A stretch of DNA of 15,925 nt from contig VAWY01000166.1 of the NCBI GenBank assembly GCA_005888335.1, positions 1 through 15,925 of the forward strand. The letters are read 5' to 3'. This DNA comes from Actinomycetota bacterium (GTDB taxonomy: Bacteria > Actinomycetota > Thermoleophilia > Solirubrobacterales > Solirubrobacteraceae). Position 1 is the first letter of the stretch. Every line of letters begins with the position of its first letter. The translations under genes were made by a program, and so were the position numbers. Below, piece after piece: positions 10,496 to 15,261 of the stretch. The notes beneath the pieces were generated by a model. The model ran no database searches. It was not told the DNA's origin and saw nothing but the letters and a program-made list of their open reading frames with translations.

Positions 10496-12226
10496 ATGGC
10501 ACTTTCGGTCGCCCTCGTCACGCCCTTTGCCTGGTCGCAGCCGCACGACGTGAACGAGCACGTCGAAGGGCTCGCACGGGAGCTGCGCGCGCGCGGTCAC
10601 CGCGTCACCGTGCTCGCCCCGTCGAACCGGGCGCGCGACCTCGCCGCCGGGCGGCGGGCGCTCTCGAGAGGCGCCGGGGGCGACCTGATCGCACTCGGCC
10701 CCGCCGTGCCGATCTCGCGGCGAAGCCGGATGGGCGTGCCGGTCGGCGTGCGCGCGAACCTCGCGGTGGCGCTCGCTGCGGGCGGCTTCGACGTCGTGCA
10801 CGGCTTCGAGCCGGGCTTGCCGAGCCTCTCCTACCTCGCGCTCCGTGACGCGAGCCCGCTCACCGTCGCAACGTTCTTCTCGCCGGAGCGGCTCACCTAC
10901 CCGCCGGCGCGCACGCGGCGGGAGCGGCTGCTGACCCGCCTCGACGCACTGCTCGCGACGAGCGAAGAGACCGCCGCAGCCGCAGGCGAACGGTTCCCGG
11001 GGCGCTACGAGCTCGTGCCGATCGGCGTCGACCTCGAGCTCCATGCGCCGGGAGCGAAGCGAAACGTGATCGTGCTCGAGTGGCGGCAGTCGGAGCGGCC
11101 GCTGCTGCGGGCGCTCGTCCGCGAGCTCGGCGCGTTCCCGGACTGGCAGCTCGTGATCCTGCGGACCCGCCCGCTCGGGTCGCGCCCGCCGCTGCCACGC
11201 GCGTTGCGGGGACGCGTCCGGGTGCGGACCGCGCTCGACGGCGCGGCCCGCGCGGAGGTTCTGCGAGAGGCGGCGGTGTTCGTCCCGTCGGCCGAAGGGG
11301 TGCCGCGGGTCGAGGTCGAAGCGCGCGCGGCCGGCGTTGCCGTCGCGTCGCCGCCCGGCCGGCTGCTCCAGCCCGAGCTCGCGGCCGCGGAGGCGGCGCG
11401 CCTGCTCGAGGACGACACGTTCCGCGCCCGTCGCGCCGAGCAGGGTCTCGCCGAGGCGCGAGGGCAGAGTTTCACGGCTCTCGCGGACAGGGTGATGGAG
11501 GTGTACACAGCCATCACATCGCGCCGCCGCCCGGCGACGCCGCGCGCCCTGCTCGAGGGCCGCGACTGGATTCTCGTCGACCTGCACATGCACACGAGCT
11601 GGTCGCACGACTGCTCGATCGACGTAGACGAGCTGCTCGACCACGCCGAAGAGGAGGGCCTCGGCGCGATCGCGGTCACCGACCACAACGTCTTCGGCGG
11701 AGCGCTCGAAGCCGTCGAGAAGGCCAAGGGCCGCAAGCTGATCGTGATCCCGGGCGAGGAGGTGAAGACCGCCGGTCAGGGCGAGGTGATCGGCCTGTTC
11801 CTGAAGGAGGAGATCCCACGCGGCATGTCGTTCGCCGAGACCGTCGAGGCGATCCGGGGCCAGGGCGGCCTCGTCTACGTGCCGCACCCGTTCGACCGGT
11901 TGCATGCGATTCCAGACCCGGCGACTCTCCACCGCCATCTCGCGGAGATCGACGTGTTCGAGGTGTACAACGCGCGTCTGCTCTTCGAGGGCTACAACGA
12001 CGAGGCCGTCCGCTTTGCGCGCAAGTACAACCTGACCGCAGGCGCCGGCTCGGACGCGCACGTGCTCCAGGGCGTCGGCACAGGCGCCGTCCGGATGCGC
12101 CGTTTCGACGGGCCGGAGGAGTTCCTGCTCTCACTGCGAAACGCCGACGTTCTGCGCCGGCCGAAGTCGCTCGCGTACCTCCAAGGACTGAAGTGGGTGG
12201 CGCAAGCCAAGGAAAGGGTTCGTTAG
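10496..12226 (+). CDS. Fusion of GT4-type glycosyltransferase and PHP-domain phosphoesterase
   Basis: A 576-residue two-domain soluble protein. Residues about 1-345 form a GT-B glycosyltransferase. The N-terminal half has the family 4 layout (VALVTPFAWSQPHDVNEHVE, then FDVVHGFEP), and the C-terminal half ends in the E-x7-E sugar-nucleotide motif at E267 and E275 (SAEGVPRVEVEARAAG). Residues about 358-575 form a PHP metal-dependent phosphoesterase with all expected ligands: H364 and H366 (HMH), D396-H397 (TDHN), E421/E422 (PGEE), H464 (PHPF), and D520 and H522 (SDAH). The two parts are joined by a short Arg/Pro linker without a stop or frameshift. Next to inositol-lipid genes the transferase may act on phosphatidylinositol like PimA; the PHP part may remove a phosphate from the same pathway. 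Both substrates are inference. Confidence 0.85.
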   Translation: MALSVALVTPFAWSQPHDVNEHVEGLARELRARGHRVTVLAPSNRARDLAAGRRALSRGAGGDLIALGPAVPISRRSRMGVPVGVRANLAVALAAGGFDVVHGFEPGLPSLSYLALRDASPLTVATFFSPERLTYPPARTRRERLLTRLDALLATSEETAAAAGERFPGRYELVPIGVDLELHAPGAKRNVIVLEWRQSERPLLRALVRELGAFPDWQLVILRTRPLGSRPPLPRALRGRVRVRTALDGAARAEVLREAAVFVPSAEGVPRVEVEARAAGVAVASPPGRLLQPELAAAEAARLLEDDTFRARRAEQGLAEARGQSFTALADRVMEVYTAITSRRRPATPRALLEGRDWILVDLHMHTSWSHDCSIDVDELLDHAEEEGLGAIAVTDHNVFGGALEAVEKAKGRKLIVIPGEEVKTAGQGEVIGLFLKEEIPRGMSFAETVEAIRGQGGLVYVPHPFDRLHAIPDPATLHRHLAEIDVFEVYNARLLFEGYNDEAVRFARKYNLTAGAGSDAHVLQGVGTGAVRMRRFDGPEEFLLSLRNADVLRRPKSLAYLQGLKWVAQAKERVR

Positions 12227-12250: not shown

Positions 12251-12835
12251 GTGACCGTGGCGACCGACGAGATCTATGAGAAGTACCTGCAAAAGGCGAT
12301 CACCGAGATCAACGCTCTCGGTGACGCCGTCGCGCAGGCAGCTGCGGGCACGCGGGTCCCGGTCGTCGGCTCCGGCCACCCGCTCGCCGACGTCTTCCTG
12401 CTGAAGTACCTGCCGCGCGCGTCCGAGCTCCAGGAGGGCGTCGCGTTCTACGGCCGGGCCGGCAACGCACTCTTGAAGTCGCTGCAGCGGCTGCGGGTCG
12501 ACCCGATGGCGGTGTACGGGACGAATGCGCTCAAGTTCGCCGACGGTGACGAGGAGGAGTCCCGCCCCTTTCTGCTCCGTGAGCTGCACATCGTGCAACC
12601 GAAGCTCGTCGTCGTCATGGGCGACCAGGCGGTCGCATTCCTCAACTCCGTGAAGTTTCCGCTGGCGCGCAAGGTCGCGCCGACGACAGGCGAGCTGCAG
12701 AAGCTCACGCCGACGATCGACGCGCTCTACACGCCCGACATCGACGACGCGCTCGACGAGCAGCCCGCGAAGACGGCCTTCTGGAACGCGTTCAAGCTGC
12801 TCGGCGAGTGGTGGGCGTCGCTTCCTCCCTACTAG
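12251..12835 (+). CDS. Uracil-DNA glycosylase-superfamily-like protein, probably divergent or inactive
   Basis: A 194-residue soluble protein that follows the layout of family 4 uracil-DNA glycosylases. Residues 36-51 match the first strand and loop (VPVVGSGHPLADVFLL), 63-75 match the conserved G-x-PF-x-GRAG-x-LL block, 88-95 match the Y-x-TN-x-K strand (VYGTNALK), and 105-132 match the helix and strand ending VVVMGDQAV. However, there is no cysteine at all, so the iron-sulphur cluster of family 4 cannot form. The catalytic GEAPG-type loop is replaced by KYLPR, and no HPS-type motif is found near the C-terminus. It may bind DNA or a nucleotide without glycosylase activity, or use other residues. 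The start is GTG, with only a weak AAGGG upstream; a second in-frame GTG lies at 12257. It follows the fusion gene by 24 bases. Confidence 0.62.
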   Translation: MTVATDEIYEKYLQKAITEINALGDAVAQAAAGTRVPVVGSGHPLADVFLLKYLPRASELQEGVAFYGRAGNALLKSLQRLRVDPMAVYGTNALKFADGDEEESRPFLLRELHIVQPKLVVVMGDQAVAFLNSVKFPLARKVAPTTGELQKLTPTIDALYTPDIDDALDEQPAKTAFWNAFKLLGEWWASLPPY

Positions 12836-13581
12836 CCCGGCACCGCGTCGCGGCGTTCGCCGCCGTGGGCGCAGTCGTCGGCACATGGTTCGTCGTCGCG
12901 CCCCATCTCGAGCGCGTGGGCCTGTGGCCGGCGATCGCGATCGTCTCGATCGCCGTCATGCCGGTGACCTTCCTGCTGGTGCTGATTGCGCTGCCGCTCT
13001 GGCCGAGACGTTGGCTCCTGCCTGTGGTGGTTGTGCTCGCGCTCGTCGCACTCGTCTGCTCGCTCGCAGACTGGGGACTCGCCGCGAACTTCGCGAAGCT
13101 CTGGGCGGCCGTCTTTGCGGGCTGGGCGTTCCTGACGATGTTCGAGCAGCTGTCGTGGGTCGTGCTCGTCGCTGCGGTGATCCCGCTCGTCGACATCGTT
13201 TCGGTGTGGCGCGGACCGACGCACCACATCACGACGCACCACTTCGAGGTCTACACGGCAGTCGCGATCGCGTTCCTCGTTCCCGGCGGCGGCGCCGCGT
13301 ACCTCGGACCGCCGGACGTCCTCTTCTTCGCCCTCTTCCTCGCGGCCGCCGCGCGCTGGCACCTCAGGGTCTTCTGGACGTGGTTCTCGATGGTGGCCGT
13401 GTACAGCCTGACGGTTGTGATCGCGAACGCCGCCGACATCGGCGGCCTGCCGGCGCTGCCGTTCCTCTCGGTCGGCTTCCTCGCGCCGAACGCCGACCTC
13501 CTGTGGCGGCGGCTCAGGCGCCCGTCGGCGGGTTCGTCCGCGTCGTCTTCTTCCGCGGGTGGCGGCCCGGCGCCGAGCTGA
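12808..13581 (+). CDS. Multi-pass membrane protein, presenilin-like intramembrane aspartyl protease candidate
   Basis: A 257-residue membrane protein with about eight or nine hydrophobic helices from residue 14 to 232 and a Ser/Gly-rich tail. Two membrane aspartates sit where presenilin/signal peptide peptidase proteases have theirs: D129 in PLVDIVSVW and D170 in YLGPPDVLFF, which resembles the GxGD motif with GPPD instead. A PAL motif follows at 215-217 (GGLPALPFLSVGFL), the third hallmark of that family. The order D, GxxD, PAL and their distances (41 and 45 residues) suit a compact bacterial member. Protease activity is inference. It overlaps the UDG-like gene by 28 bases, so translation is coupled. 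The start is one of two adjacent GTGs, at 12808 or 12811. The last 68 bases overlap the convergent gene. Confidence 0.72.
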   Translation: MVGVASSLLARHRVAAFAAVGAVVGTWFVVAPHLERVGLWPAIAIVSIAVMPVTFLLVLIALPLWPRRWLLPVVVVLALVALVCSLADWGLAANFAKLWAAVFAGWAFLTMFEQLSWVVLVAAVIPLVDIVSVWRGPTHHITTHHFEVYTAVAIAFLVPGGGAAYLGPPDVLFFALFLAAAARWHLRVFWTWFSMVAVYSLTVVIANAADIGGLPALPFLSVGFLAPNADLLWRRLRRPSAGSSASSSSAGGGPAPS

Positions 13582-13858
13582 CCGACGTCTCGCCGATCGA
13601 GAACGGCGAATGGAACGACGCGACGACCGCGAGGATGATCGCCGTCGACACGGCGAACCAGCCTGCTGCGGAGTCGTAGTCGCGCAGCACCATCACGAAG
13701 CCCAGGCCGATCGCCGCGAAACCGAGGATCCAGGCGGGCACCTGTTGCCAGAGTCGGAATCTGTTCGTCGCGCCCGTCACGGTGACGTGCAGGTTCGCGT
13801 CCGTCCTGATCTCCGCAGGTTCGTTCCGGGCCGCAACCGGAGCGCCGTCGTTTTCCAT
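13514..13858 (-). CDS. Small two-helix membrane protein, hypothetical
   Basis: A 114-residue protein with a perfect GGAGG ribosome site five bases before its ATG, which makes it a convincing gene despite its size. The first 40 residues are soluble, with a strand-like segment NLHVTVTG. Two hydrophobic segments follow at about 41-59 (PAWILGFAAIGLGFVMVL) and 64-82, separated by a short acidic turn RDYDS. The tail is basic and Pro/Thr-rich (HPRKKTTRT). I recognise no family. It overlaps the end of the convergent presenilin-like gene by 68 bases, so the two C-terminal tails are encoded on opposite strands of the same DNA. A TAGGCT promoter hexamer lies about 30 bases upstream, over the stop codon of the rRNA methyltransferase gene. 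Confidence 0.68.
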   Translation of the reverse strand: MENDGAPVAARNEPAEIRTDANLHVTVTGATNRFRLWQQVPAWILGFAAIGLGFVMVLRDYDSAAGWFAVSTAIILAVVASFHSPFSIGETSVSSAPGRHPRKKTTRTNPPTGA

Positions 13859-13887: not shown

Positions 13888-13893
13888 AGCCTA
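13888..13893 (-). promoter_or_regulatory. Possible -10 element for the two-helix membrane protein gene
   Basis: On the minus strand this reads TAGGCT, identical to the hexamer before pepT. Its first three bases are the stop codon of the upstream methyltransferase gene. A transcript would start near 13881 and carry a leader of about 22 bases containing the GGAGG ribosome site, so this one would not be leaderless. Confidence 0.4.
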
Positions 13894-15261
13894 GGGCACG
13901 CGCTCGAAGAGAGCAACTGTCTCGACGTGCGGGGTGTGCGGGAACATGTCGACCGGCCGGGCGCGGAGGAGCTCGTAGCCGTACTCCTCGCGCAGCGTCT
14001 TCGCGTCGCCGGCGAGCGTCGTCGGGTTGCACGAGACGTAGACGAGCCGCGGCGCGCCGATGGCGCCGAGGCGGCGCAGCGCCTTGCCGGCGAGCCCGGC
14101 GCGCGGGGGGTCGACGACGACGACGTCGGGCGCGCCGGAGCGGTCGAGGAGGTCGTCGACGACCTGACCCACGTTGCCGGCGAAGAAGGCCGCATTCGTG
14201 ATCCCGTTCAGCTCGGCGTTCTCGAGCGCACACGCGACGGATTCCTCCGAGACGTCGATCCCCCACACCGTCAGCGCGTCGCCCGCCATGGAGAGTCCGA
14301 TCGTGCCGATGCCGCAGTAGAGGTCCCACACCGTTTCGTCGCCGCCGAGCTGCGCAGCGTCACGCGCGAGCGCGTAGAGCTTCTCCGCCATCGCCGTGTT
14401 CGTCTGCATGAACGCGTTCGGGCGAACGCGGAAGCGCAGGCCCCCGAGCTCCTCCTCGATCCAGTCGTCGCCCCACAGAAGCTTCGTCGGTAGATTCGTC
14501 ACCTCGGCCGGCGTGTCGTTGATCGACCAGTGCACCGACCGCACCGGCGGGAAGCGGCGTACGACGTCGACGAAGTAGCCGTGCTCGAACTTCTCCCCGG
14601 CCGCGGTCACGAGCTGGACGAGCGCCTGTCCGGTGTTGCGTCCTTCGCGGACGACGAGATGGCGCAGGTACCCGGTGCCGTCTTCCTGCGAGTACGCCTC
14701 GAGCCCTTCCTCGCGCGCCCAGTCGCGCACCGCGTCGCGCAGGTCGTTGCCGAGCTCGGTCGTCAGCCAGCACTTCCGGATGTCGAGCACCTCGTCCCAG
14801 CGGCCGGCCCTGTGGAAGCCGAGCGCCGGCCCGGACGGCGTGCGGGTGAACGAGTACTCGAGCTTGTTGCGATAGTGGAAGACGTCGGGCTCGCACGGGA
14901 CGATCTCCTCGAGCGGCGGCTCCGCTATGCCTGCAAGCCGTTGGAGCGCGTCGCGAACCTGGGACTCCTTCTGTGCGAGCTGCGCGTCATAGGCCAGATC
15001 CTGGAAGCGGCAGCCTCCACACGCCGGAAAGTGCTCACACGGCGCCTCGACGCGCTGCGGGCCGGGGCGCAGGACCTCCGTCGCAAGCGCCTCGGCGTGC
15101 GAGCGCTTCACCTTCGTGACGCGCGCACGCACCCGGTCGCCGGGGAGGCCGCGGCGCACGAACACGACGAACCCGTCCACACGCGCGACGCCGTTGCCGC
15201 CGTACGCAAGCGACTCGACGTCGAGCTCGAGCTCCTGGTTTTTCGTCACCGGCGCGGCCAT
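13891..15261 (-). CDS. rlmD: 23S rRNA (uracil-5-)methyltransferase, RlmD/TrmA family with TRAM domain
   Basis: A 456-residue SAM-dependent methyltransferase that makes 5-methyluridine in RNA, most likely position 1939-type in 23S rRNA. Residues about 5-62 form a TRAM RNA-binding domain. The 4Fe-4S ligands are C75-x5-C81-x2-C84 (ACGGCRF) and C164 (IRKCW), as in E. coli RumA. The Rossmann methyltransferase domain has WDLYCGIGTIGLSMA for SAM binding and VVVDPPRAGL. The catalytic nucleophile is C411 in VSCNPTTLAGD, and the general base is E447 near the C-terminus. Related enzymes RlmC, RlmCD and TrmA share these residues; the iron-sulphur cluster argues against TrmA. Its ATG lies six bases after a TACCCT hexamer and has no Shine-Dalgarno sequence, so it appears leaderless. 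Confidence 0.92.
   Translation of the reverse strand: MAAPVTKNQELELDVESLAYGGNGVARVDGFVVFVRRGLPGDRVRARVTKVKRSHAEALATEVLRPGPQRVEAPCEHFPACGGCRFQDLAYDAQLAQKESQVRDALQRLAGIAEPPLEEIVPCEPDVFHYRNKLEYSFTRTPSGPALGFHRAGRWDEVLDIRKCWLTTELGNDLRDAVRDWAREEGLEAYSQEDGTGYLRHLVVREGRNTGQALVQLVTAAGEKFEHGYFVDVVRRFPPVRSVHWSINDTPAEVTNLPTKLLWGDDWIEEELGGLRFRVRPNAFMQTNTAMAEKLYALARDAAQLGGDETVWDLYCGIGTIGLSMAGDALTVWGIDVSEESVACALENAELNGITNAAFFAGNVGQVVDDLLDRSGAPDVVVVDPPRAGLAGKALRRLGAIGAPRLVYVSCNPTTLAGDAKTLREEYGYELLRARPVDMFPHTPHVETVALFERVP

Follow-up and report, generated by a model that had tools for sequence, protein, structure and literature searches.

A presenilin-like membrane protein paired with a UDG-like gene in Actinomycetota: a probable divergent bacterial branch of the presenilin/SPP-type proteases

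Gene arrangement in the window

The window, that is, the whole 15,925-nucleotide stretch that was analyzed (contig VAWY01000166.1 of an Actinomycetota bacterium), contains a forward-strand open frame of 257 amino acids with a GTG start (12808..13581) that encodes a presenilin-like polytopic membrane protein. Directly upstream on the same strand lies a gene for a UDG-like protein of 194 amino acids (12251..12835; PF03167 with 41.1 bits, the cut-off being 24.3). The GTG of the membrane-protein frame sits inside the 3′ end of this gene, giving the 28-base overlap (12808..12835, forward strand) described in an initial annotation of this DNA. The residues on which that annotation drew, D129, the D170 of a GPPD motif and a PAL motif, were all located in the frame at the claimed sites and in order. 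D129 (13192..13194), the proposed first catalytic aspartate and the equivalent of PS1 D257, lies on a helix formed by residues 115–135 (13150..13212; DSSP on the structural model). A β-hairpin with strands 154–157 and 163–166 (13267..13305, also from the model) directly precedes G167-P-P-D170 (13306..13317), which occupies the place of the GxGD motif, aligns with the GLGD of PS1 and provides the second proposed catalytic aspartate. The PAL motif, P215-A-L-P218 (13450..13461), aligns with the PALP of PS1; all of these features are on the forward strand.

Upstream of the pair the forward strand encodes a protein composed of glycosyltransferase-4 and PHP domains (10496..12226; Pfam), and on the reverse strand a TRAM/tRNA_U5-meth_tr (RlmD-like) methyltransferase is a convergent neighbor (13891..15261; Pfam) that probably stands outside the unit formed by the two genes. 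Between 7107 and 12226, all before the pair, PAP2_3, CDP-alcohol phosphatidyltransferase and a myo-inositol-phosphate synthase look-alike (recognized by eye) are found together with the GT4-PHP fusion, resembling a phosphatidylinositol-lipid gene array. A convergent reverse-strand frame of 114 amino acids (13514-13858), with two hydrophobic stretches by eye, overlaps the presenilin-like gene at its 3′ end and had no match in a Pfam search.

Distribution of the family and its pairing with the UDG-like gene

At least 2221 homologues of the window membrane protein were found at E ≤ 0.01 in a large protein collection of which the best 7996 candidates were scored, and the 120 homologues listed have neither a Pfam domain nor a functional name. 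The presenilin-like frame is thus more than a chance occurrence. Two profiles were used for the family: A1, from 29 close relatives, and A2, broader, with 34 members reaching down to 24% identity. The A1 profile found 10 loci in the genome_contigs set. With few candidates scored per genome, A1 matched in at least 24 of 396 sampled Actinomycetota genomes (the phylum of G002) and A2 in at least 32, the two weakest A2 matches being near the threshold. A spread into Acidobacteriota, prompted by locus L008, was dropped because the L008-based phylum search drew the same genomes as the earlier sample.

Gene order was compared in 39 loci (L001–L010, L012–L034 and L058–L063), any further loci being duplicates of these. 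L006 and L007 hardly differ from each other, a contig end truncates L060, and L062 and L063 contain partial membrane-protein frames next to an intact UDG-like frame, perhaps as decaying copies. In 38 of the 39 a UDG-like gene stands directly upstream of the membrane protein in the same orientation, so that the coupling put forward in the initial annotation is borne out as conserved adjacency. The sole exception is L028, where the membrane protein is present and the UDG-like gene was not detected. Among the 33 loci for which the spacing was computed, nine have −28, the same overlap as in the window, six have −4 (L027, L030, L031, L032, L034 and L058), and the remainder range from −55 to +174, except for L063 at +290. 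L014 has an ATG at the place equivalent to the window GTG. In 11 of the 38 loci (L026, L027, L029–L034, L058, L060 and L063), roughly the C-terminal half alone of the upstream protein matches the UDG-like profile, and in the two of these upstream proteins that were examined (L026 and L031) Pfam saw no UDG. A relative of the PHP protein is present in 19 of the 39 loci.

A functional partnership between the two proteins is, in our estimate, reasonably probable. The adjacency might instead be that of an old conserved array (PHP – UDG-like – membrane protein) in which a protease has no functional tie to its neighbor. The UDG-like family is present in 60 of the 396 genomes at E ≤ 1e-15, and 20 further strong UDG-like loci (L065–L084) bear on the question. 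Of the 38 places at E ≤ 8.7e-66, they are all 20 without an A2 match at that place, G196 having a threshold A2 match on another contig. In 19 of the 20 the membrane protein is absent downstream (same strand, up to 1.4 kb or to an earlier end of the contig or stretch), and 19 of the 20 keep a PHP relative, which speaks for the old array. The pair is therefore not obligate in both directions, because the UDG-like gene has no membrane protein downstream in these 19 loci; strict co-dependence of both genes is rejected, a presenilin-like frame lying downstream at L065 only. Against the array, L026–L034 show a PHP or RlmD-like neighbor in none of nine loci (fetched stretches of 1.9–3.4 kb), yet eight of the nine keep the UDG-like gene directly upstream, five of these with the 4-base overlap, which argues for function over inherited synteny. 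We regard the array as a possible but rather doubtful account of the adjacency, and retain the functional partnership. The frame at L065 is very divergent, with PTVP for PALP and GITD at the second aspartate, and the A2 genome search, in which part of the candidates were scored, did not pick it up.

The NCBIfam UDG models match the UDG-like protein only far below their cut-offs. Profile A5, built from 14 sequences, has matches to 28 sequences of solved structure at E ≤ 0.01 (best 9.2e-16), and those listed bear names such as uracil-DNA glycosylase, type 4 or UdgX, pointing to the type 4/UdgX part of the UDG superfamily (PF03167). The GEAPG motif, the C-terminal HPx motif and the 4Fe-4S cysteines have known roles in UDG family 4, and none of the three was found in the window's UDG-like protein: the GEAPG of solved uracil-DNA glycosylases aligns with K-Y-x-P-x, the A5 match stops before HPx, and the protein has no Cys (four are kept in 7 of the 14 A5 sequences). 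The window's UDG-like protein is thus unlikely to be an ordinary uracil glycosylase. Four Cys, possibly for an Fe-S cluster, are kept in the distant groups L015–L021 and L023–L025 and not in the window's clade, which suggests that the clade may have drifted from canonical UDG chemistry.

Conserved motifs, predicted fold and relation to presenilins

Conservation was followed in an alignment of 329 rows (the window protein, 290 database proteins and 38 locus proteins, some identical or nearly so, with the partial L062 and L063 left out). Because the rows were gathered as homologues of the window gene, overall similarity comes as no surprise; what stands out is how strictly the motif residues are kept while the background diverges. 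D129, S132, G136, P137, G167, D170 and P218 are invariant in all 329 rows, both aspartates proposed initially thus being conserved throughout the homologues, and the remainder of the PAL motif is nearly so (P215 in 328 rows, A216 and L217 in 327 each). Within the 34 A2 members the invariant set is D129, S132, G136, P137, G167, D170, F173, F177, L186, A216, P218 and N228. Position 169 is Pro in 303 rows, Ser in 17, Ala in 5 and Thr in 4, and never Gly. GPPD, initially called unusual, is no peculiarity of this gene, being fixed in the window's clade (29 of 29 in A1). The Tyr of the YD motif is absent from all 34 A2 rows, and the residue before D129 is V in the window protein and V, I, S or A in A2. 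In the model D129 and D170 are placed on adjacent TM helices, the former on the 115–135 helix and the latter on a helix formed by residues 168–183.

A search of all PDB sequences with A2 (hmmsearch) gave matches to six distinct sequences at E ≤ 10, every one a presenilin. The strongest was the PSEN1 C-terminal fragment 2kr6 (E 4.4e-6), in which GxxD aligns with GLGD and PALP with PALP. The first-Asp segment was also aligned to the YD helix in PSEN2 and PSEN1 (6iyc), with i-Evalues of 140 and 72 that are not significant alone. Subset A3 matched presenilins from 5.2e-5, followed by one unrelated sequence at 9, and subset A6 matched presenilins from 0.0028, followed by one unrelated sequence at 2; subset A4 was weak, with presenilins at 0.0035 and 0.02 and then unrelated CD1 at 0.13 and 0.16. 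Profile A1, the window's own clade, found no presenilin in the PDB and one unrelated kinase (0.41), and the window sequence alone had no match, so the presenilin link rests on the divergent members, which tie in the window sequence.

The window protein had no match in a search of all Pfam-A at E ≤ 10, including the PF01080, PF04258-type and PF06550 families that the initial annotation proposed to search, nor in NCBIfam up to E 10. Three of the 34 A2 members touch PF01080 (best E 0.0028; two members score 9.1 and 8.8 bits, the cut-off being 34.3). Matches to five unrelated families occur in single members (best 0.0064), and NCBIfam gave weak unrelated matches only over the 34 (best 0.046). PF06550 was found in none of 11 carrier genomes at E ≤ 1 and in none of 296 sampled Actinomycetota genomes at E ≤ 0.01, and neither PF06550 nor PF01080 was over its cut-off in any of the 296; among 14 control genomes PF06550 was over its cut-off in two (Haloferax volcanii and Methanosarcina acetivorans) and PF01080 in none. 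Weak PF01080 matches occur at 12 places in 11 of the 296 genomes, none over the cut-off. The place in G039 (model positions 331–392) is a member of the window protein's family, and the other places fall within model positions 183–366 (eight) and 22–187 (three).

The structural model, built from 137 sequences (pLDDT 91.8), has eight long membrane helices, with two short helices and the β-hairpin between D129 and G167. It superseded a first model from 29 close sequences (pLDDT 63.5), for which the fold search gave four unrelated matches with E 7.6 or worse. Structural matches of the 137-sequence model above the gap are all presenilin/SPP, with a best Foldseek E-value of 5.0e-3 and every E-value above 0.001, and a presenilin-type fold, as proposed initially, is thus predicted. 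The archaeal PSH is not among the 50 Foldseek matches listed, nor is prepilin peptidase A24 among the structural matches listed, an absence still compatible with A24 likeness. The initial count was about nine helices; the confident model contains eight, which would fit better. The crystal structure of MCMJR1 reportedly has nine. Yet for MCMJR1, too, eight TM helices had been predicted (PMC2947513).

Mean net charges over the 329 rows are +2.1 at the N-terminus, +1.3 in loop 2, +2.2 in loop 6 and +1.2 at the C-terminus, and between +0.1 and −1.0 in loops 1, 3, 5 and 7; loop 4 averages −0.8 though it is expected inside, a mild contradiction. With the orientations of SPP and presenilin as the reference, the positive-inside rule favors an N-in/C-in arrangement in which the catalytic and PAL loops would face outward, an SPP-like orientation.

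Compared with presenilin (PSEN1/PSEN2; MEROPS A22A, PF01080), the window family has GxxD rather than GxGD and lacks the YD Tyr, has eight membrane helices in the model with the short hairpin replacing the long TM6–7 loop, remains below the Pfam cut-off, is bacterial with no γ-secretase partners seen, and is predicted to have the opposite orientation. From SPP/SPPL and the archaeal PSH MCMJR1 (A22B, PF06550; 9k92, 9k93, 4hyg, 4y6k and 4hyc) it differs in having no PF06550 match, no second GxGD Gly and no YD Tyr, and in being paired with a UDG-like gene. PS1 G384 has been reported as required for activity (PMC2647162), and G384A as raising Aβ42 with no significant effect on Notch processing (PMC2405781); G219A slows archaeal MCMJR1 (PMC2947513). 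Given these mutant effects and the missing second GxGD Gly and YD Tyr, activity of the window family is therefore not to be assumed.

The missing residues, with Pro in place of the Gly in most rows, would fit a pseudoprotease in which the presenilin fold is retained without cleavage, the protein serving as a receptor or chaperone in the membrane, either for its UDG-like partner or for TM segments; invariance of both aspartates and G167, and near-invariance of PAL, down to about 24% identity would, however, be unusual for a dead enzyme, and we consider this reading unlikely. A prepilin-peptidase-like protein (A24, clan AD) or another polytopic protein with convergent motifs is very improbable: A24 enzymes likewise rely on a pair of Asp and on a GxGD-like motif, but the nearly invariant PAL motif, the presenilin/SPP structural matches and the six presenilin matches of A2 stand against it.

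Proposed function and significance

The window gene is best explained as a divergent bacterial branch of the presenilin/SPP-type di-aspartyl intramembrane proteases with a co-translated UDG-like partner, a reading that we hold to be quite likely. Computation supports it through the predicted presenilin fold, the two invariant aspartates in the right helices, the PAL motif and the conserved UDG-like neighbor. Membership in the presenilin/SPP superfamily fold is almost certain, and an active protease is likely. We have not filed the family as A22A or A22B because the full GxGD, the YD motif and scores over the Pfam cut-offs were tested for and are absent; it most likely works like A22 members all the same.

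In the proposed mechanism, D129 and D170 would activate water to cut the TM segment of a substrate, which may pair with the 154–166 hairpin. Translational coupling would tie production of the membrane protein to that of the cytosolic UDG-like protein, which could bind a nucleic-acid or nucleotide signal or serve as an adaptor, and the pair would carry out regulated intramembrane proteolysis. The specific signaling step has a low probability. In the complete scheme, which is more speculative still, a bacterial GxxD presenilin-type branch would form a two-gene system with a modified UDG-like cytosolic protein, and this protein might sense a nucleic-acid or nucleotide signal and gate intramembrane proteolysis of a membrane-tethered regulator.

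Presenilin-type proteases, among them the enzyme that generates the amyloid of Alzheimer's disease, have been studied in eukaryotes and archaea. Searches of the open-access literature listed no paper on a presenilin-type family of bacteria; Raut et al. 2021, which seems the most relevant paper, may mention bacterial members. A "bacterial presenilin homologue" is mentioned in PMC8396450 and is probably the archaeal protein. A review of bacterial proteases includes presenilin A22, exemplified by a eukaryotic protein (PMC7593790), and an A22 presenilin-like protease is named in an archaeal assembly (PMC10354927). A bacterial branch with invariant catalytic aspartates and no second GxGD Gly offers a natural test of which residues presenilin chemistry needs, and the conserved UDG-like pairing hints that membrane proteolysis may be tied to a nucleic-acid-enzyme fold in a way not yet explored. 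The family is testable because it is small and has a cultured carrier, Gaiella occulta, which encodes a homologue (P0172 and P0176, locus tag Gocc_2523); the isolate has been described (PMC6741124).

Two members extend beyond the usual C-terminus. In L022:1498-3036 (forward strand) the membrane-protein frame runs on stop-free for about 270–300 residues more, with no clear Pfam match in the extension (DUF7673, 17.6 bits against a cut-off of 27). P0158 (483 amino acids) is the same membrane protein with a C-terminal DUF429 fusion (PF04250, E 1.1e-45), and is named a predicted RNase H-like nuclease by its source.
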